Below, in pieces: positions 38,787 to 52,193 of a stretch of DNA of 64,000 nt; positions within the stretch are counted from its first letter, which is position 1; every line of letters begins with the position of its first letter. A model generated the notes under the pieces. That model ran no database searches and was not told the DNA's origin. It worked only from the letters and a program-made list of their open reading frames with translations. This stretch comes from Salisaeta longa DSM 21114 (GTDB lineage: Bacteria > Bacteroidota > Rhodothermia > Rhodothermales > Salinibacteraceae). The position numbers and the translations under genes are program-made. The stretch spans positions 2,953,001 to 3,017,000 of the forward strand of contig NZ_ATTH01000001.1 of the NCBI RefSeq assembly GCF_000419585.1, in the 5' to 3' direction.

Positions 38787-38815
38787 TTGAAACTAGGCCG
38801 TCGGAGCCCTATACT
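38787..38815 (+). promoter_or_regulatory. Sigma-70-type promoter of the giant surface-protein operon
   Basis: TTGAAA (38787-38792), a 17-bp spacer and TATACT (38810-38815) make a near-consensus -35/-10 pair. Transcription would start near 38822, leaving a leader of about 40 nt with AGGAG shortly before the ATG at 38863. Confidence 0.6.
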
Positions 38816-38862: not shown

Positions 38863-41800
38863 ATGCTACATCGGTACCTCTGGGCAGTTGCTAGTCTGCT
38901 GACATTGTATTTGAGCGTTCCACATGCTGCCGTTGCGCAAACGGGCCCGGGCGGCGTGGGAGAAAATAATGGGACGTCCGATCTGCAACTTTGGATGCGG
39001 GCGGGCAGCATTACGGGTCTCACAGACGGGGCCTTCGTCAACACATGGCCCGATGCCTCGGGGTATGGCCATAATGCTGAACAGCCTGACGATAATGCGG
39101 CTCCTATTTACCGTTCTAATGGTCGTAATTCGCGACCGACCGTCGAGTTTGGCGGTCCAGATAGCCAAAACGGATTCCTCACCCAGGCCGATGCCGATGA
39201 AATGACTGGTGCGTTTGCGACAGCAACGGACGGGACAGTGACCTATTTCGTTGTTGGGAACAATGATGCAGTAACCCCTGTCGGCCCCGGCCCGGGAGGT
39301 TCTAATGGGCGTCGTGCTTTGGCTGCGTTTGACGGCGGGTCAGCCAGTAGCGCAGACAACCGTCTCTTCGTGGAAAAAGACGGCGTGAACTACTACGATG
39401 GGTCGACTGAGCGGAAAGGGGGGTCAATCAGTCAGGGCGCGTTTGTTTTCTTTGACGTTACCCACGACGGCAGCAGCATCGACGGGCGCTTGTTTGGAGA
39501 CAACGTCATTAGCGCCTCAGGTGATTCCAGTGGTGCCCTTAAAAAGTACCGACTGGGAAACGATCAGACCGGAGGCGACAACCTGGACGGTAACCTTGCG
39601 GAGGTCATTGTCTTCGACCGTGTGCTCAATGAGGCCGAGCGCCTCGTCGTTCAAAACTACTTGTCGTCTAAGTACGATATTGCTTTTGGAACGACGTCGA
39701 AGGACAAGTATGCCTACGACGGCATCTATGGGTTCGATGTGGCCGGAATTGGCCGCCAGTCGTCGTCGGCTACTCATCTCTCATCAAATAGCAGCATCTT
39801 GAACGTTAGCGCCTCCAGCTTCAGTGGAGATAGCCGCTACGTGTTTGTTGGTCACAACGATGGCGGGGCTGCCTCCTTTGGCTTCGAGGCCACCGAGCCG
39901 GTGAACGGCCTCTCGTCCAATGTAGAGCGCATGGCTCGCGAATGGCGCGTAGACTTGAGTGGGGTCGCCACAAAAACAGTCACGGTTTCGATTAAGGGTG
40001 CGAACCTACCCGCACGCTCGGACGGCACGTACGAATACTTTTTGTTTGTGGATGAAGGGGATGCGTTTAGTACCAGCCCCGTTGCGTACACCTTGCAGGA
40101 TGATGGTACGGGCACGTACACGGCCAATGTCGAGCTTTCCGATGGGAATTATCTGACCATTGGTGCTGGACGACGCGTCGTAAGCCTTGATGCAGCGACG
40201 GCGGACAACGCATTTGAGAACACCACAGCCTCGCCCAATGCATCGCTCACAGTGCAGTTGAATCTCCCGTACAGCAGTGCTTCCGGAACGGATGTGGGTG
40301 TTGCATTCACTAACACCGGTGACCTCGATGGCTCGGGAACCATCGAAGATTCAGGGACAGGGAATGTCAATGGGGTTTACGAAGCCAGCGCCTCAGATTA
40401 CAATGTAAGTACGACAAGCCCAGTCACGATTTCCGCTGGAAGCAGCACTGCCTCTGTCAATATCAACCTCACGGACGATGGAGGTGTTGAGCAGACAGAA
40501 AAGTTCAACGTTGCACTTGATGCTTCCGGCATAACCAACGCCGATATTGGCTCTAGCGATAACGTCACCTTTTCCATCAATGATGACGACGACCCACGTA
40601 AGCTGAGCTTCACGGACGTGTCGGTTTCTCAGTCCGAGGGAAGCGGAGGCGGGACGCGTATCGAGACCTTTGTCGTTACGATGCCTTCGTCTGAAGAGGC
40701 GGCAACCAAGGATCCACTTACCACGGTGGACTTCGAGATCATCGGCACAAGCACGGCCACGGCCGGAGATGATATTGCGATCGTCGATGAATCCGATCCG
40801 GGTGGCAATGCGGAATATCAGGAGGGTCTCTCCATGACCACGGGGCGTATCCATTTCTCCAGTGCTGACGGTACCACGACCGCTGAGCTAAAGTTAGCAA
40901 TTAGCGAAGACGACATTAGTGAAAACGACGAAAGTGTGGTTGTCAAACTCATCAATCCGGTGAGCAGTGCCCTGGCTGCTTCAGGAACCGAGCTCACCTT
41001 CACACTCACCGACGACGAAACGCCTCCTACGGTGCAGTTCGCTGCGGGTACCAGTGAGGGCGGTGAAAACGTGGATGGAACGATCAACGTGACGCTTTCT
41101 GAGCCTGCCGGAAATACCGTATCGGTCGACTTTGCGTTGGATAATGGAGCAAGCACAGCAACGCAAGGAAGTGACTTTGCTCTCCTGCCGAGTGGAAATA
41201 CGGTTACGTTTGCCCCCGGAAGTACCAGTGAAAGCATCACGGTTGACGTGAGCGATGACAGCCAGGCTGAGCTTGGTGAAGCGGTTGCTATTGACCTGAG
41301 TGCAGCCACAAACGCGACGCTCGGCTCGCAAACGCGCCACACCTATACGATCAACGACAACGATGCAACGACAGCGGGTTCCACGGGGCCCGGTGGCGTA
41401 GGTGGCGCCGCGAATAACAAACTCTGGTTGCGTGCATCTTCGCTCGACGGCCTAGGTACCGGAGCACCGGTTTCGGTGTGGGGTGACAGAAGCGGAAACG
41501 CCAATGACGCATCGCAGACCGGGAGCGCACGTCCGACGCTCCAGACGAATATTTTAAACTCCCAATCAGTGGTACGCTTCGACGGTACAAATGACAACCT
41601 GCGCGGCACGCTGTCGAAAGTCGACGGCATGACAATGATTGCTGTGGGTAACAGCAACGCCACGAATCGGAATGCCTTTGGGGAGATTTATCAGGGTGGT
41701 TCCGTGCGAAACGCAATGTTCGTTAATCCTGGAGCGAATCTCAACTACTACGATGGTAGCACCGAGCACAGGTACGGATCGGTGTCGCAGGGCGAGTATC

Positions 41801-44496
41801 TCATCTTTGGCGTCACCCACCAGGGTGCATCCATCGAGATGTTCAAAAATGGTGACTCCATCTTTTCGACGCTTTCCGGCAACACAAATGGGACTACGAC
41901 CGACTATGTCATTGGGAATGACGAGACCGGTGGCGATCTGTTGAATGGTGACATTGCCGAGTTCATCGTCTATAGCAGCGTGTTGAATGCGACCCAGCGC
42001 ACCATTGTGGAGAACTACCTGTCTGCACGATACGACATTGCGCTGAACACAGGGGGCACCGCTACTGACGTCTACGCCGGGGACACGAACGGAAACGGCG
42101 ATTATGACCGCGGCGTGTTCGGCATCGGACGTACCACAACGAATGACTTCCACGTGGCCGCCGAGACCGATGGCCTCCGCTTTGACAATCCCAGTGGCTT
42201 CGACAACGGCGAGTACCTCCTCGCAGGGCACAAGACGCCACAAAACGCTGTCAACACCACGGATGTGGGTGGCGTGAGCGGCCTCGACGCCCGGATGGAG
42301 CGTACCTGGTACTTGGATACCGATGCGCTGACTGCTGACGCTACGTTCGACCTGGCCGCCGCGGGCCTCTCGGGGCCAGCCGGCGCTGCCAGCGGGTATG
42401 TGCTCTTACAGCGCACGGCCGGCAGCGGTGGGGCGTGGACGCAGGTGGCTGCGGCGAGTAGCGTATCGGGCAGTACCATTACGTTCAGTGGCCTTGCGAT
42501 GGGGAGTGATCTTTCCGCGGGCGACGAAATTACCATTGGCACGACCGACCGCGCTGCGAGTCCGCTCACAAACAACGCCTTGCTCATTACCGGTACCTCC
42601 GGAACCGATGGCCGCGACCAAGGCTGGCGCTACCTGGGCTTACCAGTGACCGGCGGCACGGCAGGCGATCTCCTCGGGCCCGACGGTACGCCCTATATCG
42701 ACTTCAGCGTTGCGATGGCGTACACCAATCCTGGCGACGATGGCACCGGCAACGGATGGCAGCCCATCACCTCCGCGGCAAGCCCGCTCACCAACGGACG
42801 CGGATTTATCGTGTGGTTGTTTGACGATGCCGCCTATCCGGTAGACCCGTTCGTCACCCTGCGCCCGAGCGGCGGTCTGACGGGCCCCGGAGCCGCAAAT
42901 GTGACGGTGGGAGATGGCAGCGCGGCTATAGGTAGCGATCCGACCCTGGCAACTGATGACGAACAATTCTTGCTAGCCAACCCCTACAGCGTCCCGTTTT
43001 CGCTTGGGAGCCTTACGGCGAGCGGCTTCGACGATGTCGTGCAGATTTGGGCGCCCGATGCCGCGGCGCCCGCGGGGGTTGACGACGGCAATGCCGGCAG
43101 CTTCGTAACGCGCAGCCGTAGCGCCAACGATCGCGTTGCGCCCTGGCAAGGGTTCTTTCTCACGCGCACTACGGTGGGCAGCGGCGCGACCAAAGTGACG
43201 TTCAACAGCAGCGGGCGTGCAGCCGGGCAGGCAACGGGCTTTGTCGGGTCGAAGCAGCGCGCTGTGCCCGCCCCCAATGTTCCTTTGGTGCTGCGCGGGT
43301 ACGATGCCAACGGTGCGCTCGTCGCGCTGGACCGGGCCGCGTCGGTCGTTTTCCGAGCGGGCGCTACCGCGGGCCGCGATCGCTTCGACGCGCCCAAGCT
43401 GCAGCCCATGACGCAACGCTACGCTATCATCGCGCCGGTTGCCCCGGCCGGTGGCGGTGCCGGTGCCCTACGGGCCCGCGAGAGTCGGCCCCGGCCAACG
43501 ACGGGCGGCGCTGTCGAAATCCCGCTGGCCTTCGTGGCCAAAAACATCGGGCACACGTTCGACATTGCCATCCCAACCGGTAGGCAAGCGGCCACCGAAA
43601 CATACGCGGCCCCCGAGGACTGGCGGGTGCTGCTCGTGGATACGAAGCGCACGCCCACGCCGTCGGATGACGTAACGCATGAGCTGACGCCGGGCGGCGC
43701 GCCGTATCAATTTTCAGCTCTCCAGACCAGCAAGACCAGTGCGGTCTCTCGCAGTGCCCCGCGCGATCAGGTGCCCCAGCCTGCGGCTTCTCGCCTGCGG
43801 CTCCCACCACAACAGGCGGCTCGCACAGGCAATCAAAAGTCATCGCCCAAAGCCACGACGTCCGGCGCGCGCTTCCTGTTGCGCGTTGAAGCCACATCGG
43901 GTCCTCTGCCTGTCGAAATGGCGGAGCTGCAAGCTGCCGTTGGCGATCAGCGGTCGGTAACCCTCCAATGGACGACCGCCAGCGAGACCAACAATGCCGG
44001 CTTTTACGTGCAGCACCAACGCCTGACGGCTACCGACTCCACCGCTGATGCGGCCGACTGGGATGCGCTCGGCTTTGTGCCCGGCAGCGGGACGACAACT
44101 GCGGCGCGGTCGTACCGATTCACAACCGACGCGCTTGACTACGGGAGGCATGCCTTCCGGCTGCAGCAGGTGGATGCCAACGGCACTGTTGCTTACAGTA
44201 AAACGATAACCGCAGCGGTGCAACTCACCAAAGCCTTCGATGTGCAGGCGCCGTACCCCAACCCGGCACAACAGCGCGCAACGCTTCCTATCGCGGTGCG
44301 CAACACCCAGCGGGTGACGGTTGCCATCTACGACGTGCTCGGGCGTCGCGTATCGGTGGTGCACAACCAGACGGTACGCGGTCAGCAAACGAAGCAGGTG
44401 CAGGTACCAACCGGGCGCCTGGCCAGTGGGCTCTACTTTGTGCGGATTCGCGGCGAACGCTTTGCCACCACGCGCCGCCTCACGGTCGTCCGCTGA
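38863..44496 (+). CDS. Giant secreted protein A: LamG-like/GIGR modules, Calx-beta repeats, T9SS-type C-terminus
   Basis: A 1877-residue secreted protein. Signal peptide ends AAVAQ (about residue 26). Module 1 (about 40-430) is a LamG-like jellyroll (LQLWMRAGSITGL, NTWPDASGYGHNA) followed by a VAGIGR segment and GHNDGG. Calx-beta-like repeats follow (about 435-836; TYTINDND). Module 2 (about 840-1200) repeats the jellyroll (NNKLWLRASSLDGL) and GVFGIGR. A long pre-C-terminal region (GWRYLGLPVTGG, LLANPYSVPFSL) leads to LPVEMAELQ and TASETNNAGFYVQH (about 1680), then a T9SS type A-like sorting domain (about 1794-1877: APYPNPAQQ, YDVLGRRV, GLYFVRIRGE). It is predicted to be exported and displayed or released. 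Ligand unknown; adhesion or glycan binding is inferred from the folds. Confidence 0.9.
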   Translation: MLHRYLWAVASLLTLYLSVPHAAVAQTGPGGVGENNGTSDLQLWMRAGSITGLTDGAFVNTWPDASGYGHNAEQPDDNAAPIYRSNGRNSRPTVEFGGPDSQNGFLTQADADEMTGAFATATDGTVTYFVVGNNDAVTPVGPGPGGSNGRRALAAFDGGSASSADNRLFVEKDGVNYYDGSTERKGGSISQGAFVFFDVTHDGSSIDGRLFGDNVISASGDSSGALKKYRLGNDQTGGDNLDGNLAEVIVFDRVLNEAERLVVQNYLSSKYDIAFGTTSKDKYAYDGIYGFDVAGIGRQSSSATHLSSNSSILNVSASSFSGDSRYVFVGHNDGGAASFGFEATEPVNGLSSNVERMAREWRVDLSGVATKTVTVSIKGANLPARSDGTYEYFLFVDEGDAFSTSPVAYTLQDDGTGTYTANVELSDGNYLTIGAGRRVVSLDAATADNAFENTTASPNASLTVQLNLPYSSASGTDVGVAFTNTGDLDGSGTIEDSGTGNVNGVYEASASDYNVSTTSPVTISAGSSTASVNINLTDDGGVEQTEKFNVALDASGITNADIGSSDNVTFSINDDDDPRKLSFTDVSVSQSEGSGGGTRIETFVVTMPSSEEAATKDPLTTVDFEIIGTSTATAGDDIAIVDESDPGGNAEYQEGLSMTTGRIHFSSADGTTTAELKLAISEDDISENDESVVVKLINPVSSALAASGTELTFTLTDDETPPTVQFAAGTSEGGENVDGTINVTLSEPAGNTVSVDFALDNGASTATQGSDFALLPSGNTVTFAPGSTSESITVDVSDDSQAELGEAVAIDLSAATNATLGSQTRHTYTINDNDATTAGSTGPGGVGGAANNKLWLRASSLDGLGTGAPVSVWGDRSGNANDASQTGSARPTLQTNILNSQSVVRFDGTNDNLRGTLSKVDGMTMIAVGNSNATNRNAFGEIYQGGSVRNAMFVNPGANLNYYDGSTEHRYGSVSQGEYLIFGVTHQGASIEMFKNGDSIFSTLSGNTNGTTTDYVIGNDETGGDLLNGDIAEFIVYSSVLNATQRTIVENYLSARYDIALNTGGTATDVYAGDTNGNGDYDRGVFGIGRTTTNDFHVAAETDGLRFDNPSGFDNGEYLLAGHKTPQNAVNTTDVGGVSGLDARMERTWYLDTDALTADATFDLAAAGLSGPAGAASGYVLLQRTAGSGGAWTQVAAASSVSGSTITFSGLAMGSDLSAGDEITIGTTDRAASPLTNNALLITGTSGTDGRDQGWRYLGLPVTGGTAGDLLGPDGTPYIDFSVAMAYTNPGDDGTGNGWQPITSAASPLTNGRGFIVWLFDDAAYPVDPFVTLRPSGGLTGPGAANVTVGDGSAAIGSDPTLATDDEQFLLANPYSVPFSLGSLTASGFDDVVQIWAPDAAAPAGVDDGNAGSFVTRSRSANDRVAPWQGFFLTRTTVGSGATKVTFNSSGRAAGQATGFVGSKQRAVPAPNVPLVLRGYDANGALVALDRAASVVFRAGATAGRDRFDAPKLQPMTQRYAIIAPVAPAGGGAGALRARESRPRPTTGGAVEIPLAFVAKNIGHTFDIAIPTGRQAATETYAAPEDWRVLLVDTKRTPTPSDDVTHELTPGGAPYQFSALQTSKTSAVSRSAPRDQVPQPAASRLRLPPQQAARTGNQKSSPKATTSGARFLLRVEATSGPLPVEMAELQAAVGDQRSVTLQWTTASETNNAGFYVQHQRLTATDSTADAADWDALGFVPGSGTTTAARSYRFTTDALDYGRHAFRLQQVDANGTVAYSKTITAAVQLTKAFDVQAPYPNPAQQRATLPIAVRNTQRVTVAIYDVLGRRVSVVHNQTVRGQQTKQVQVPTGRLASGLYFVRIRGERFATTRRLTVVR

Positions 44497-44551
44497 CGCC
44501 ATGTGGCCCCGCGTTCGGTCTGCACTCCAGCTTTCAACAGAAGCAAACGCC

Positions 44552-47500
44552 ATGAAACAACAGATACAGTCCATGTCGCACGCCTCGAACTCCCCAACAC
44601 CGTGGGCCACGGTGCTTGCGGCTTTCCTGCTCCTTCTTCCGGCCGTAGCCGCGGCCCAGATCAATCCCGGGGAGCCGGCCCTTCCGGCCGTACCTGCACC
44701 CGAACGCGTGCTGTGGCTTCGTGCCGATCAAGACGTAACAGGCACCAGCGCGGTGTCGCTGTGGGAGGACCAGAGCGGCAACAACAACGACGCCACCCCG
44801 CGCAACCTGAACGGACCCGCGTTTGTGTCGTCCGTCACGGGGCTGAACGGTCAGCCGGCGCTTCAATTTGACCGGGCCAACGATGAGGGCCTGGGCCCCG
44901 ATGACACGCCGGATATCAATAGCGACGATGCGGGCTATGCACAACGGACCATCGCGCTGACCTTTCGGACGGGGGGCGATACCGGGACGCGCCAGATCAT
45001 TTATGAAGAAGGTGGTCAGACCAACGGATTCAACGTCTACCTGGAAAACGGCGATGTCGTAGCCTCGGCTTGGAGCCAATCGACCGGTTGGAGCGATCAC
45101 TATTCCCTCAGCGCGCCGGTATCGGCGAATACGTCGTATGTCCTCACGTTCGTGTTCGACAAAGACGCGAGCGATCAGCTGCAGCTATACCTGAATGGGG
45201 GAGCTGAAGGCGCCTTCTCGGATCCCAGCATCACAGATATGTCGGTGCATGGCGGCAACATTGCCATTGGAAATGTGAGTGAGGATACGCAGTTTGATGG
45301 AGCTACGCCCATTGAGGTGCCGGGCACCGGCGGGGAAGGATTCACCGGATATGTGGCGGAGGTTGTGCTGTCCAACGTGGCTTTTAACGATGCGCAGCGC
45401 CAGATTGTAGAAAGTGACCTGGCCGAGCGCTATGGAATTACGATCACGAACGACCGCTACGCCCTCAGTGGCTTTTTGGGAGACATTACCGGGGTGGGCG
45501 AGGCCCAGAGTGGCGACCGGCAGACGCGGGCGCAGTCGGGCATCGTATCGCTCGAATCTACCGGTTTTGGCACGGCGCCGAGTTTTGGGCTCATTGGCCA
45601 CAACCGGCAGCCCAACAGCTTTACCGAAGATACCGATCCCTCGGGCATTGGCACGCGACTAGAGCGCGTGTGGCGCTACGACGCAAAAAACACGGCCTCG
45701 TTTAACCTGTCGTTTGATGTGTCGGCGCTGCCCACGTTGGCTTCCGGCCAATCGTACCGGTTGCTTGTTGAGACCGATCCAACGTTCACCTCTGGCGCTA
45801 CGGTGGTTAGCGGGACCCTGAACAATGGTACGTTCACCGTCAGTGCCTCGGACTTGAACAGTGCCGGCTTTTCTGATGGCGACCACTTCACCCTGGCCAA
45901 AACAGATGTTGCCGGGCCCGCCTCGCTTGCCTACAGTCCCAATCCCCTGGCCGACCTACAGGGGAACTTGCCCCTCAGTGCTTCAGCCACGGTCACCGGT
46001 GCAAACGGTACGGTCACCTACAGGTTGGCCGACGTGAGCTCGAGTGACGGCGTGCCAACGGTGTCGTTTGACGACAACCCCAATGGAGATGCAGATGTTG
46101 AGATCGATACGCAAACGGGCGAGATTACGGTGAACGCGGGCGCACCGGTGGGCACGTACACGGCCACGGTCGAAGCAACCGACAGCGATGGAACAGTGAC
46201 CTTTCCGGATGTACTCACGATTACTGTCCAGGAGCCGGTCACAATCGCATACGACACGCCCTCGCAGGTGGTGATTTACGAGAATGGTTCGGCTGAATCC
46301 ATTCAACCGGCGATGCCCAATGCGCTGTCCATTGAGGACGGCACAGTGACGTACAGCATTGTGGACGGCAACGACCCAACGACGAACGGACTCACGTTTG
46401 ATTCTTCGACAGGCAAAATCAGCGGTACGCCCACAAGTCCGGGGCTCCTGCGTTTTGTGGTGGAAGCGGCCGGAAGCGGCGCTGCTGCCGGAACGCCCAC
46501 CGCAGAGGTGAACATCGCCGTGGTGGGGGGCGACGGTCCGGCCGGCGTGGGCGACGACGCATCCACGCTTGCAATCTTTGATGCCTCGTCGCTCTCCGCA
46601 GTCGACAGCAATCCGGTGAACACATGGCCCGATCTTGATGCTTCGCCCAACAGCAACGACGTTTCGGCCGATGGCGCCGCGCCAATCTACCGCGCGAGCG
46701 TCACCGGCCTCAACGGGCATCCGGCGCTGGACTTCTCCGAGACGACCGGCTTGCTCCGCATGCCCGACAACCCGCAGTTCAATAATGGCGGACAGCCGTA
46801 TGTGCAGCGCACGCTGGCGCTTGCCTTCCAAACCGGCAGTAGCGTCTCCAGCGGACCGCCCGAAGGCATCTACGCAGAGGGCGGCGGTACCCGGGGCATC
46901 AGCGTGTACGTGCGCGGCGGCGACCTGTACGTGGGCCTGTGGAACCTGAATCCCGATGACGGCTCAACCCCCTGGGGCCCGCACTTTTTCCGGGCCGAAA
47001 CGCAAGGAAGCGGCAGTGGCACGGTGACCATCGACCCCAACACCGCCTACGTGGTGACGCTCACGTACAACTATGCTGCAAACGTTATTGAGGCATACGT
47101 AAACGGCACGCTCATTGGCACCGCAACGGGGCCGGCGGACGTCGGACGGCTGTTTGACCACGACGACGTTACGATTGGCGGCGGCGACAACCTGGAATCT
47201 GATTCGGGAGACGCCAACTACAGCGAATTCACCGGTCAAATCGCCGAGGTCATTGCCTACGGCGTGGCCCTCTCCGATGCGCAGCGACGCCTCGTTGAAA
47301 GCAGCCTCGGCGCGAAGTACGGCATCGCCGTTGCCAACCCGGTGTACGACCTCAAGCAGACCGACGAATTCCTCACCGGTACAGACGTAGTGGGCATCGG
47401 GCGGACGAGCGGCGCAAACGCGCACGACCCAGATGTTGCATCGGAGCCCCTGCAGATCACCGGTGCTGATATTTCCAGTGGCACGCCATTCTTTACTATC

Positions 47501-50500
47501 GGACACGACAACGGCTCAGGCACGACATTCACAGCCGACAAAAGCTTGCCAAGCACGTCGGATGGAGAAGATGTCTCCAGCCGCCTGGCGCGCACATGGC
47601 GCGTTGACCTGAACGGCGGGTCGCCCACCTTCGATATTACCTTCAACGTCACAGACTTCAGCCTGGGCAACGGGCAGGAGTACGTGTTGCTTGTGGACAG
47701 CAAATCGGACTTTCGAAGCAACAGCGATGCCCTGCGGCCTACATCGGCCGATACAACCAGCAGTGGCGACGGGACGGTCACCTGGGCGTCGAGCGACCTA
47801 GGTGCGTTGGACGATGCCGATTACGTTACCATCGGAAAAACATTGGGCAACCCTTCGCCGCCTTCTAACCTGACCTACAGCCCCAATCCGCTGCGGGTGA
47901 GCGCGAATGCCATCACCGCGGCCCAAGCTACGCCTTCATACGATGGCGGACAGCCGGCGCCTACCTTCCAGATTACCAACGGTGCAGCCGCAGGCATTAG
48001 CATCGACTCAAACAGCGGCGTGCTCACGGTCGACCCGCAAACGGCTGCGCAAGACATCTACACCTTGACAATTGAGGCGTCTAACAAGCAAGGCAACGAC
48101 GGCGGCGCAACGACAACAACAGTAGACGTTGAGGTTTACGAGCCGCTCACGGATCTTTCGTACGCCGATGCGGTGCAGACGGTGACCACGGGCGATGCGA
48201 TGCAGACGGTGTTGCCTGCCTTCACACCGGCGCTGAGTACCATCACCAGCGAAACCATTACCTATAGCCTGCAGCGCGTGTATGTAAACAACAACACGCA
48301 GACCGATCTGTCGGGGACGGGGCTTACCTTCAATACTACTTCAGGAGAAATCAGCGGGACGCCCAGTCAGCTTGGGACGGTGTCGATCGTCGTGCAAGCC
48401 GTTGGCAGCGGCGGCGCGGGAGGCACCGTGACAGCGCCCGTCAAGATCACCGCCGTGGGCGACCAGGGCATTGCGGGTATCGGCGACGCCACGACGACGC
48501 TGCTTAACCTGACAGCCGATGCGGCGCAGTTCACCGGCAGTGGCACCGTGGACCTATGGCCTGATGCCAGTACATACGGTAACGATGCTACGCCGTCTAC
48601 AAGCGGTGCACAACCCACCTATTTGGCCAGTGGGCTGAACGGACGGCCTGCGCTGCAATTTGATGGGACCGATGATGTTGATGTGCTTGGCATTGCCGAT
48701 GCGGCGTCCCTCAACTCCGGTGACGGGCCCTATGTGCACCGTGCGCTCACGGTCGTGTTTGAGACGAGCAATGACGTGAGCAGCCGGCAGGTTCTCTATG
48801 AACAGGGCGGCGGCACCCGTGGCCTCAACATCTACATCAGCAATAACACGCTGTATGTGGGCGGGTGGAACGAACAAGACGACACGTTCTCGGGCGGAGG
48901 CGAAGATCCCACCACGCCGTGGGAAGGCGGCACCGACGACCAGTTCGTTGCGGCCAGCACGCCCATCAACACCAACACAGCGTACACGGCCACGCTGGTG
49001 TTTGACTACGCCAAAGGCACCATGGAGCTGCTGCTCAACGGGGCGGTCGCGGCTACAGCAACGGGCGTCGATGCCGGCGTCGGTCGCTTGTACGATCACG
49101 GCGGTGATATTGGCATCGGGGCAGTGCGGAACCAAACCAAATTTGAAGATGGAAGCGAACCCGAAAATGGGAATCACTTTACTGGAAAAATTGCGGCGCT
49201 CGTCTTTTACGAGGCGTCGCTGAACAGTGCGCACCGCACGCTCTTGCACAACGCGCTAGCGGCTCGGTACGGCATTGCTTTGGATACAGGCAACGGGGCG
49301 CAAGACGTGTATGCCGGCGACACCAACGGCGACTACGACCTTGGCGTCTTTGGCATTGGTCGCGACGGCGCAGCATCGGCGCATACCAAGGCGCGCCGCG
49401 GCGGCTTTCGGCTGGCGGCAGCGGGTGGCCTCGATGCGGGCGACTACCTCACCGCCGGCCACAAGACGCCCACCAATGCATCGACCACGAGCGACATCGG
49501 CGGTGTGACCGGGCTGCAGGCGCGCATGACGCGCATCTGGCGCTTCACGGCGATTGATCCGGCGGCAGATCTTAGTGCGAACGTCATCATGGACCTGTCG
49601 GAGGCCGGCTTTAGCACCGTGGCGGGAACAGCCGGCGACTACGTACTGCTCACGCGGGCCTGCGGAAGCACCAATTGGGCACAAGCGGCCACGGGAAGCA
49701 GCATTGCCAACGGCGATGAAATTAGCTTTGGTGCGGTTTCCTTCGCCGACGGTCAGTGCTACACGGTAGGAACCACCGATCAGGTAAACAGCCCCATTTC
49801 CAGCACCGCCCTCACGATTGTGGGCACGAGCGGAAGTAACGGAGGCGATGCTGGCTGGCGGGACATGGGAATGCCTGTGCTGGGAGGAACGGTTGCTGAT
49901 GTCCTGCAAGGCAACGGCAATCCGCTCTACAACGCAACCTCCATTTTCTACGCATGGGATGACGATGCTAACGTGAGTTCATCACCCCAGCGATGGACGC
50001 GGGTTGGCTCAAATGATCAATTGCCCAACGGTCGAGGGTTCACCGTGTACTTTAGAGACAAGGGCGCTACTGCCATTGACCCCACATTTACTGTTCAGGC
50101 AGCCAGCGGGCTTATACCTCCAGGAGATACAGATGTGATTGTTGGAGACGAGCAAAACCCAAATGATACACAGAACCTAGCTGATGATCCACTCAATGTG
50201 GAGGCACAGTGGCATTTTCTGGCTAATCCATACGGGGTGCCGTACGATCTGACCCACATGACTGGCGTGAGCGACTTTCAGGCAAACGTGCAGGTGTGGG
50301 ATGTGAGTAGTTCTGGATATGAGGTCATAAACCTTGTACCAACTAATCGAACAGGTATCACGGCATGGCAGGCGTTTTTCCTCGAGCGCACGGAGCCTGG
50401 TCTGCAGGGAGGACCTGAAACCGTAACTTTTGATGCTAGCGGGCGCCAACCCGCGGCTTCAAACACGAATGCTTTCTTTGGCAATAGCCAAAAGCAAGCG

Positions 50501-51676
50501 CCACAGCGTCCTCCTCGTTTAATCTCATTGGAAGTAATTGGTCGAGATAGCAGCGGGGTAGAAGTGGCGCGCGATGAAGCGGCAAATCTTCTGTTCTATG
50601 AGCGAGCATCCGCAGCATGGGGACGCTACGATGCCACAAAATTAACTCCTCCCGTAGCACGCTATATTGCTATTGCTCCCATGGGTGAAGGACGGACGGG
50701 AGAACCGATACCAAAGGCTCAAGAGGCCCGTCCGGTCCCGCAATCGCCTGTATCCATTCCGTTGGCGTTCACAAGTCGCCGCGTTCAAGGGCGTATTACG
50801 CTGCGTGCTGCACGGTGGGAAAATATCCCCGAAGGGTGGAGCGTTGAACTTGTCGACACGAAAGGTACCCCCGACACAACTGATGATGTAGTGCATTCCC
50901 TGGGGCCCAAAGCCGAAGGATATACGTTTAGCACTACTTCTTCGAAGGCCAAGGAAGCGTTGCAAAAGCGCGAGAGAACTCAGCGCTCGATGAACCTTCG
51001 TCCACAGGCGCTGCAAGCTTCAATGCAGAAGACAGGCGCGGTGCCAAATACGCGGTTTGTGATCCGTATTGATCCTGGAAGCAGTCCGTTGCCGGTCGAG
51101 CTGGCCACATTCGACGTATCAAAGGATGAAGAGCAGGCGTACGTGCACTGGCGCACCGCATCTGAGACCAACAATGCGGGGTTTTATGTTGAACACCAAG
51201 TGCTCAGTCCATCGGATAGCACAACGCGTGCCGCAGCGTGGAAGGCACTCGGGTTTGTAGAGGGCCACAATACAACGAACGAGCCCCAATCCTACCAATT
51301 CCGTACGGAGCGTTTATCGTATGGCTTGCATGCTTTTCGCTTGCGCCAAGTGGACCATGATGGTTCCGTGTCGTACAGCAAGGAAGTGATGCTTTCTAAC
51401 CGTCTGCGGGCTCCTGTAGCGGTTCGTGGCCCGTACCCCAACCCGTCGCGCGTGCAACCGACGCTCGAAGTCACCGTGCGGTCTACCCAACGCATTGCCG
51501 TACACGTGTATGACCTTCTTGGGCGCCGGGTAAAAACCGTGTTCAATGACGTTTTATCGGGACAGCAGACCCGCAAGCTATCCGTTGACGTGGGAGACCT
51601 AGCCAGCGGAACCTACTTCTTGCGTGTCCGAGGTACTTCCTTCGCACGGACCGAGCGTCTTACGGTCATTCGTTAG
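44552..51676 (+). CDS. Giant secreted protein B: three LamG-like/GIGR modules, Ig-like linkers, T9SS-type C-terminus
   Basis: A 2374-residue paralog in layout of protein A. Signal peptide ends AVAAAQ. Three jellyroll modules start near residues 50 (VLWLRADQDVTG), 662 and 1305, each with a GLNG-hydrophobic core line (LNGQPALQFD, LNGHPALDF, LNGRPALQFD). The GIGR-type signature is intact in modules 2 and 3 (VVGIGR, GVFGIGR) and altered in module 1 (ITGVGE). Modules are separated by pairs of putative-Ig/cadherin-like domains (about 459-663 and 1103-1306; SGTPTSPG, SGTPSQLG). The end repeats protein A: LPVELATFD, TASETNNAGFYVEH, then a sorting domain (about 2292-2374: GPYPNPSRV, YDLLGRRV, GTYFLRVRG). 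The ATG at 44552, 55 bp after gene A, starts the signal peptide; an upstream open stretch overlaps gene A out of frame. Co-transcription with A is likely. Confidence 0.9.
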   Translation: MKQQIQSMSHASNSPTPWATVLAAFLLLLPAVAAAQINPGEPALPAVPAPERVLWLRADQDVTGTSAVSLWEDQSGNNNDATPRNLNGPAFVSSVTGLNGQPALQFDRANDEGLGPDDTPDINSDDAGYAQRTIALTFRTGGDTGTRQIIYEEGGQTNGFNVYLENGDVVASAWSQSTGWSDHYSLSAPVSANTSYVLTFVFDKDASDQLQLYLNGGAEGAFSDPSITDMSVHGGNIAIGNVSEDTQFDGATPIEVPGTGGEGFTGYVAEVVLSNVAFNDAQRQIVESDLAERYGITITNDRYALSGFLGDITGVGEAQSGDRQTRAQSGIVSLESTGFGTAPSFGLIGHNRQPNSFTEDTDPSGIGTRLERVWRYDAKNTASFNLSFDVSALPTLASGQSYRLLVETDPTFTSGATVVSGTLNNGTFTVSASDLNSAGFSDGDHFTLAKTDVAGPASLAYSPNPLADLQGNLPLSASATVTGANGTVTYRLADVSSSDGVPTVSFDDNPNGDADVEIDTQTGEITVNAGAPVGTYTATVEATDSDGTVTFPDVLTITVQEPVTIAYDTPSQVVIYENGSAESIQPAMPNALSIEDGTVTYSIVDGNDPTTNGLTFDSSTGKISGTPTSPGLLRFVVEAAGSGAAAGTPTAEVNIAVVGGDGPAGVGDDASTLAIFDASSLSAVDSNPVNTWPDLDASPNSNDVSADGAAPIYRASVTGLNGHPALDFSETTGLLRMPDNPQFNNGGQPYVQRTLALAFQTGSSVSSGPPEGIYAEGGGTRGISVYVRGGDLYVGLWNLNPDDGSTPWGPHFFRAETQGSGSGTVTIDPNTAYVVTLTYNYAANVIEAYVNGTLIGTATGPADVGRLFDHDDVTIGGGDNLESDSGDANYSEFTGQIAEVIAYGVALSDAQRRLVESSLGAKYGIAVANPVYDLKQTDEFLTGTDVVGIGRTSGANAHDPDVASEPLQITGADISSGTPFFTIGHDNGSGTTFTADKSLPSTSDGEDVSSRLARTWRVDLNGGSPTFDITFNVTDFSLGNGQEYVLLVDSKSDFRSNSDALRPTSADTTSSGDGTVTWASSDLGALDDADYVTIGKTLGNPSPPSNLTYSPNPLRVSANAITAAQATPSYDGGQPAPTFQITNGAAAGISIDSNSGVLTVDPQTAAQDIYTLTIEASNKQGNDGGATTTTVDVEVYEPLTDLSYADAVQTVTTGDAMQTVLPAFTPALSTITSETITYSLQRVYVNNNTQTDLSGTGLTFNTTSGEISGTPSQLGTVSIVVQAVGSGGAGGTVTAPVKITAVGDQGIAGIGDATTTLLNLTADAAQFTGSGTVDLWPDASTYGNDATPSTSGAQPTYLASGLNGRPALQFDGTDDVDVLGIADAASLNSGDGPYVHRALTVVFETSNDVSSRQVLYEQGGGTRGLNIYISNNTLYVGGWNEQDDTFSGGGEDPTTPWEGGTDDQFVAASTPINTNTAYTATLVFDYAKGTMELLLNGAVAATATGVDAGVGRLYDHGGDIGIGAVRNQTKFEDGSEPENGNHFTGKIAALVFYEASLNSAHRTLLHNALAARYGIALDTGNGAQDVYAGDTNGDYDLGVFGIGRDGAASAHTKARRGGFRLAAAGGLDAGDYLTAGHKTPTNASTTSDIGGVTGLQARMTRIWRFTAIDPAADLSANVIMDLSEAGFSTVAGTAGDYVLLTRACGSTNWAQAATGSSIANGDEISFGAVSFADGQCYTVGTTDQVNSPISSTALTIVGTSGSNGGDAGWRDMGMPVLGGTVADVLQGNGNPLYNATSIFYAWDDDANVSSSPQRWTRVGSNDQLPNGRGFTVYFRDKGATAIDPTFTVQAASGLIPPGDTDVIVGDEQNPNDTQNLADDPLNVEAQWHFLANPYGVPYDLTHMTGVSDFQANVQVWDVSSSGYEVINLVPTNRTGITAWQAFFLERTEPGLQGGPETVTFDASGRQPAASNTNAFFGNSQKQAPQRPPRLISLEVIGRDSSGVEVARDEAANLLFYERASAAWGRYDATKLTPPVARYIAIAPMGEGRTGEPIPKAQEARPVPQSPVSIPLAFTSRRVQGRITLRAARWENIPEGWSVELVDTKGTPDTTDDVVHSLGPKAEGYTFSTTSSKAKEALQKRERTQRSMNLRPQALQASMQKTGAVPNTRFVIRIDPGSSPLPVELATFDVSKDEEQAYVHWRTASETNNAGFYVEHQVLSPSDSTTRAAAWKALGFVEGHNTTNEPQSYQFRTERLSYGLHAFRLRQVDHDGSVSYSKEVMLSNRLRAPVAVRGPYPNPSRVQPTLEVTVRSTQRIAVHVYDLLGRRVKTVFNDVLSGQQTRKLSVDVGDLASGTYFLRVRGTSFARTERLTVIR

Positions 51677-51733
51677 AACCTTGGCTGTCATTCGCTCAGC
51701 CCTTCATCATTACACCCGATCAGGTACAGCTGG

Positions 51734-52087
51734 ATGCTTAACTATACTCGTCTTGCTTTATGCGCAACTCTGTGGATTCTCCTATTGGGGGGAGTGCCTG
51801 ATTGCTGGGCGCAGTCGTCTGTGGGAGAGAACCCTTCGCTGCGCAGAGGGATGCAGTCGGCACCTGGGCAATTGCCTTCTTGGGCTGCGCCTAAGGCGAG
51901 ACCCAACCGGAAGGCTGATCGTGGAATGGGTATCTCACCGACACCACAGCCGTACGATTCTCCCGAAAGACCACCAGTGCCGGTAGACGGCGGCCTCGTG
52001 TGGCTGACGGCCGCAGGCGCCGCCTACGCGGCCCGCGAGCTGTCGAAGCGCCGCGGCGCTTCCGATACGGACGAAGACGACGCCTAG
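51734..52087 (+). CDS. Small secreted protein with PID-CTERM-like sorting tail
   Basis: A 117-residue protein. An N-terminal signal peptide (LALCATLWILLLGG, cleavage after about Ala26) is followed by a roughly 55-residue polar, Pro-rich segment with no fold visible. The C-terminus has P83-V-D-G-G87, a hydrophobic run LVWLTAAGAAYAA, a basic cluster RELSKRR and a short acidic end. This PVDGG / short helix / basic tripartite form matches the PID-CTERM putative sorting signal known from Bacteroidota, with Val replacing Ile and an extra acidic tail. It lies 57 bp after giant gene B on the same strand and precedes a terminator, so it probably ends that operon. Function unknown. Confidence 0.75.
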   Translation: MLNYTRLALCATLWILLLGGVPDCWAQSSVGENPSLRRGMQSAPGQLPSWAAPKARPNRKADRGMGISPTPQPYDSPERPPVPVDGGLVWLTAAGAAYAARELSKRRGASDTDEDDA

Positions 52088-52121
52088 CAGTACACAAGAC
52101 GCGCACCACGAAGCCATAGCA

Positions 52122-52152
52122 AAAGCCGAGTCGCGGCCTGCGGCTCGGCTTT
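52122..52152. terminator. Bidirectional terminator between surface-protein operon and folB
   Basis: AAAGCCGAG (52122-52130) and CTCGGCTTT (52144-52152) form a perfect 9-bp stem, extended inward by CGC/GCG. A-run and T-run flank the arms, so it can work for both converging transcripts. Confidence 0.8.
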
Positions 52153-52193
52153 CTGTGGCTCTATTGCAACCCGCTATCGGGAAGAGCTGCCCG

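Follow-up and report, generated by a model that had tools for sequence, protein, structure and literature searches.

Genetic linkage of small PID-CTERM proteins to T9SS cargo genes and exosortase X in Salisaeta longa and other Bacteroidota

We find, on the evidence of gene neighborhoods, that genes for small PID-CTERM proteins are genetically linked to T9SS cargo genes, porV, and the exosortase gene xrtX. The case described here is a three-gene unit in a 64,000-nucleotide stretch of the Salisaeta longa genome (the window), which encodes two giant proteins, A and B, and a protein of 117 residues, C. How C, exosortase X (XrtX), and the cargo would act together in processing and tethering we infer from sequence data: our preferred reading, in which our confidence stands midway, is that XrtX processes C, which then serves, anchored to membrane or glycan, as a tether for A and B, both of which carry an undescribed module ahead of their T9SS tails.

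Results

Organization of the Gene Unit

The features of the unit, with positions counted in the window, are as follows.

38787-38815, + strand: candidate promoter, TTGAAA-17-TATACT and then TTTG (from a consensus scan alone, which did not exceed chance)
38863-44496, + strand: gene for protein A, 1877 aa (ORF and family matches)
42616-43890, + strand: pre-tail module of A (aa 1252-1676), undescribed domain (profile built from PID-linked cargo)
44254-44487, + strand: T9SS type A sorting domain of A (aa 1798-1875; TIGR04183, PF18962)
44552-51676, + strand: gene for protein B, 2374 aa counted from ATG (ORF and family matches)
49847-51073, + strand: pre-tail module of B (aa 1766-2174; profile from PID-linked cargo)
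51434-51661, + strand: T9SS type A sorting domain of B (aa 2295-2370; TIGR04183, PF18962)
51734-52087, + strand: gene for protein C, 117 aa, small PID-CTERM protein (NF046080 match and conserved context)
51734-51811, + strand: signal peptide of C (aa 1-26), a hydrophobic stretch with likely cleavage between CWA and QSS
51872-51886, + strand: LPSWA motif of C (aa 47-51), of the form [LVIM]PxWA common to most PID proteins of the order
51977-52051, + strand: PID-CTERM signal of C (aa 82-106), VPVDGG, a weakly hydrophobic helix and a basic end, with an acidic tail after it
52112-52160, no strand assigned: hairpin resembling a bidirectional terminator, flanked by C and a convergent folB-like gene (fold)

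All three genes lie on the + strand, with gaps of 55 bp between A and B and 57 bp between B and C, confirming the coordinates of the original prediction. Their spacing, shared strand, terminator, and a gene order kept in other genomes suggest an operon. The closing bidirectional terminator is borne out by the hairpin at 52112-52160 (-34.7 kcal/mol, z -6.3; z -4.0 on the minus strand), which beats every shuffle on both strands; the standard terminator scan did not pick it up, probably because of its short T run. The “strong promoter” proposed upstream of A is not established: the candidate matches 10 of 12 consensus positions, but the scan yields fewer promoters than shuffled sequence does (2 observed vs. 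4.9).

Protein A combines a signal peptide, two LamG-like units, Calx-beta domains, the pre-tail module, and a T9SS type A tail; B has a signal peptide, three LamG/GIGR-like units, He_PIG/cadherin-like (putative Ig) domains, the module, and a type A tail. Both tails score above the curated cut-offs of TIGR04183 (A, 38.9 bits; B, 33.2 bits; cut-off 23) and PF18962 (42.9 and 34.1 bits; cut-off 27), and the two proteins are paralogs with 38% identity over about 1120 aa, in agreement with the view of A and B as T9SS-type surface proteins of common architecture. Type A tails are recognized by the PorV shuttle (PMC12618676), and PorV passes cargo to the attachment complex (PMC10936215). The unit is not one of type B cargo with a dedicated PorP/SprF shuttle: the tails of A and B match type A models, and C has no shuttle-family match.

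Protein C Is a Small PID-CTERM Protein

Protein C, predicted to have a sorting tail different from those of the giants, matches the PID-CTERM model NF046080 over aa 82-106 of 117, by a narrow margin (27.7 bits, cut-off 26). Its PID helix is weakly hydrophobic, no 17-residue window exceeding 1.2, a point against our preferred reading. The protein also has a Pro-rich stretch. A tblastn search of C against plasmids gave no match. The [LVIM]PxWA motif is a second conserved motif of PID proteins, located after the signal peptide; in Balneolia and Hymenobacter a short Pro-rich stretch stands in its place. One motif alignment (A3) includes a truncated protein (row 2) and served for motif display only. 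Some PID proteins are long (294-308 aa; loci L058 and L063) and contain, ahead of the PxWA motif, one more membrane segment and a stretch that resembles a coiled coil. Tandem or duplicated PID-CTERM genes occur beside one or two cargo genes (L051, L067, L144, and L145).

Most PID-CTERM Genes Examined Lie Beside T9SS Cargo Genes

The S. longa genome (3.4 Mb, 3 contigs) encodes 33 T9SS tails, two PID-CTERM genes above cut-off, and a weak one below it. All three PID genes adjoin a gene with a T9SS tail: C follows B, another lies 45 bp before a 1182-aa cargo, and a 977-aa cargo precedes the weak one at a distance of 187 bp. Among relatives, PID-CTERM proteins are found in 20 of 60 genomes and T9SS tails in all 60. 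We collected 74 PID neighborhoods, 34 from the relatives and S. longa itself and 40 from the wider phylum, and in 50 of them (21/34 and 29/40) the PID gene has a T9SS-tail gene on its own strand no more than 700 bp away, mostly at less than 120 bp. Roughly one in three of the PID genes examined has no cargo gene beside it, which weighs against our preferred reading. Against an assumed chance of 3% and 5%, respectively, this proximity gives P values of 7e-24 (34 loci) and 2e-29 (40 loci), which serve as indications, since related genomes are not independent; S. longa itself suggests a chance rate of 1-2%. The conserved neighborhood on which the original prediction depended does therefore exist. 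Its form is different: what recurs is no dedicated two-giant apparatus but one module-bearing T9SS cargo (sometimes two) plus a PID protein, which XrtX adjoins in some genomes while sitting elsewhere in others.

At least part of the export route is encoded in S. longa as well. PorV is present (307.7 bits, cut-off 250). A PorU-like sortase frame of 1822 aa (C1:2943186-2948078), separated by about 5 kb from the first position of the window, scores 175 and 64 bits, below the curated cut-off of 420, and is much longer than the PorU model; an exosortase, described below, is the candidate processing enzyme. In five relatives the PID gene lies directly 3' of porV, at 78-300 bp (L048, L050, L054, L059, and L060), and both PorV proteins checked in such loci score above the PorV cut-off.

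Exosortase X Is the Probable Processing Enzyme

Among 296 genomes with a completeness of 90% or more, 39 encode both PID-CTERM proteins and a strong XrtX, 10 PID-CTERM proteins only, 1 XrtX only, and 246 neither (P = 4e-38); at least some match to an exosortase of the XrtX type was found in all 49 PID-CTERM genomes. XrtX is probably the processing enzyme for PID-CTERM proteins because genomes with the latter almost always encode it. The GG of PVDGG had raised the idea of a rhombosortase, which we set aside given the close fit of XrtX. The XrtX alignment led to 53 named loci (Longimonas, Salinivenus, Balneolales, Fodinibius, Hymenobacter, Chitinophaga, and others). The PID gene is immediately 5' of xrtX in 22 of the 52 that were readable, and the order cargo-PID-XrtX is seen in 12 of the 52, mostly in Hymenobacter.

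These data bear on whether C might instead be an unprocessed inner-membrane assembly factor, chaperone-like and acting with PorV, that hands cargo to the T9SS and uses its PID helix as a mere anchor. The PID gene directly after porV in five relatives, and adjoining cargo in most others, would suit such a role, as would the second possible membrane segment and coiled-coil-like stretch in the N-terminal part of some PID proteins. We nevertheless think it rather unlikely, in view of the near-perfect co-occurrence of PID proteins with the exosortase, the position of xrtX as a direct neighbor, and the PID proteins of Balneolia, in which only about 12 residues separate the signal peptide from the PID helix, too short for a chaperone.

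The exosortase Cys, Arg, and His (C81, R122, and H141) are invariant across seven relatives. The sole XrtX frame of S. longa (C1:1848040-1848516) reaches 193 bits (cut-off 170) when read through one in-frame TAG, at about C1:1848338 (L080:8338-8340), between the catalytic Cys and Arg. The gene retains NGCNGL, NVVR, and DPLH flanking the TAG, which may mark a pseudogene, broken in this strain, or be a sequencing error. Since the TAG could mean that the enzyme is inactive in this strain, it counts against C as an XrtX-processed tether.

In several Rhodothermales xrtX adjoins genes of polysaccharide-export type; in the one locus tested, one neighbor matches Wzz/GNVR and another scores just below the SLBB cut-off. 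A membrane protein of 154-172 aa with no family match overlaps or trails xrtX in L081, L082, L085, and L086. The export-type genes would also fit an exopolysaccharide role of XrtX that does not involve the T9SS. XrtX and PID-CTERM would then tag biofilm operons, and the cargo and C would be co-regulated biofilm proteins that have no physical tie. The Wzz/GNVR kinase gene and the SLBB export-like gene beside xrtX, together with the classical link of exosortases to exopolysaccharide (PMC7468200), speak for this possibility. We doubt it about as much as the assembly factor, because the linkage concerns one cargo subclass with a C-terminal module rather than biofilm genes generally, and because adjacency to porV points to the T9SS itself.

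A Pre-Tail Module Defines the Linked Cargo

The LamG/GIGR modules (jellyroll/GIGR in the original prediction) are not what PID-linked cargo have in common; we rejected LamG as the common feature, since it is present in few partners. When PID-linked cargo are aligned over their C-terminal halves, what emerges instead is an all-beta module of about 370-425 aa ahead of the T9SS tail, with conserved W, NP, QxFF, D-DA-KL, and P-W features. It is found in 47 of 49 PID-adjacent cargo proteins (35 of 37 when the seeds of the profile are left out) vs. 14 of 33 other T9SS ORFs of the fetched loci (P = 5e-8), and most of those 14 are themselves in PID or XrtX loci. In S. longa the module occurs in five places, four of them in PID loci; 5 of the 33 T9SS cargo proteins there have it. 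Searches of Pfam, NCBIfam, and the PDB with the module profile gave nothing beyond a single weak hit. Its AlphaFold model is all-beta with a mean pLDDT of 60.6, and a Foldseek search of the model against the PDB gave nothing below E 0.001; hence we claim no fold. By these sequence comparisons the module appears to be an uncharacterized domain of about 400 aa. The module does not need C everywhere, because 44 of the 296 genomes have it without PID proteins, and we rejected it as a strict marker of PID/XrtX genomes on the same grounds.

Other small proteins were seen beside module-bearing cargo. In flavobacterial genomes, which carry XrtF-like enzymes, the gene that comes within 30 bp after such cargo in some cases encodes a tiny protein with a variant PID-like tail, PISG, PINN, PIQG, or PIDG (L225, L226, L227, L234, L235, and L241); we regard these proteins as candidate XrtF substrates. 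A different small partner follows module cargo in L230, L250, and L232; it has 52-59 aa, an N-terminal membrane segment, and the C terminus SPEPPGSGF or similar.

The distribution of the module also weighs on a more radical possibility, in which the XrtX-made conjugate of C would be the covalent acceptor for PorU-cleaved cargo, replacing the A-LPS or linking-sugar anchor. Type A cargo and PorV are indeed where the two sorting systems come together, and the extreme shortness of some PID peptides makes a bare linker plausible. Yet the module is found in a minority of T9SS cargo (in S. longa, the five proteins noted above), and mature PID peptides often start with Gln. An N-terminal Gln can cyclize and thereby lose its amine, which further disfavors an acceptor role. 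We consider this possibility very improbable.

Discussion

Of the proposals made for C, its membership with T9SS proteins in one conserved unit that includes a PID-CTERM signal stands; C may act as a chaperone, an anchor, or a signal, and exosortase substrate is the best-supported class. Under our preferred reading, that of an anchored tether, C would be exported by Sec and its PID helix seated in the inner membrane. XrtX, with its invariant Cys, Arg, and His, would cut C near PVDGG and attach to a lipid or glycan the peptide that remains, which is about 55 residues long for C but about 12 in Balneolia. Archaeosortase-kind and rhombosortase-kind enzymes cut near their motif and add a lipid-type group in the cases studied (PMC7157517; PMC7468200 and work cited there), and exosortases are proposed to cleave and conjugate likewise. 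The anchored peptide could then act as a tether or docking peptide for the A/B module on the cell surface or in exopolysaccharide. A and B, after shuttling by PorV and processing by PorU, would dock to it, and would thus be adhesin-like proteins of the cell surface that C holds in place or with which it is assembled. Extended to the phylum, two sorting systems would converge on one product: throughout Bacteroidota, the T9SS proteins that bear the module would have a surface anchor of their own, perhaps a covalent one, in the short lipid- or glycan-linked peptide made by XrtX. We regard this generalization as distinctly unlikely.

We know of no established substrate for the exosortases of Bacteroidota. 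The set of cargo, PID-CTERM protein, and XrtX, which takes its simplest, three-gene form in Hymenobacter, would supply concrete exosortase substrates and, in the module-bearing cargo, a class of partners for them. In Flavobacterium johnsoniae, xrtF is needed for biofilm formation and surface colonization, its substrates having been left open, and mutants of xrtF and of an xrtF-neighbor gene fall in the same phenotype row as porU and porZ mutants (PMC10936215). That likeness fits a coupling of XrtX and the T9SS, and the gene set offers an explanation for it. More broadly, giants, tiny PID proteins, and XrtX travel together across Bacteroidota, joining two export systems that, as far as we found in the open-access literature, are treated separately.

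Comparison with Known Systems

XrtX/PID-CTERM and the T9SS are each already known; judged against the open-access literature, their coupling appears to be new. Like other T9SS type A cargo (TIGR04183/PF18962), A and B have a signal peptide, a large repeat- or adhesin-like body, and a type A C-terminal sorting domain, but in their subclass an undescribed module precedes the tail, and a probable exosortase substrate is encoded alongside. As in the exosortase X/PID-CTERM system (NF046081/NF046080), C scores above the PID-CTERM cut-off and the read-through XrtX of S. longa above its own. The two families have consecutive accessions, which suggests that they are already paired at NCBI, and we did not find the names XrtX and PID-CTERM used for these proteins in the open-access literature. 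What is added here is the link to T9SS cargo and porV, as well as the very short length of the substrates.

The present unit resembles type B T9SS cargo genes that come with their cognate PorP/SprF-like shuttle genes (PMC12618676) in that the cargo gene adjoins a dedicated partner gene, but C is not an outer-membrane shuttle, and the type A tails of A and B use PorV. The PEP-CTERM/EpsH, GlyGly-CTERM/rhombosortase, PGF-CTERM/archaeosortase A, and MYXO-CTERM/myxosortase systems share with PID-CTERM/XrtX a tripartite C-terminal signal and a paired intramembrane enzyme, and in the cases studied they attach a lipid or other group to the new C terminus (PMC3237569, PMC7157517, PMC11980579, PMC7468200). 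In those four systems, however, the tagged protein is itself a sizeable surface protein, whereas here the tagged protein, C, is tiny and the giants exit by another route.
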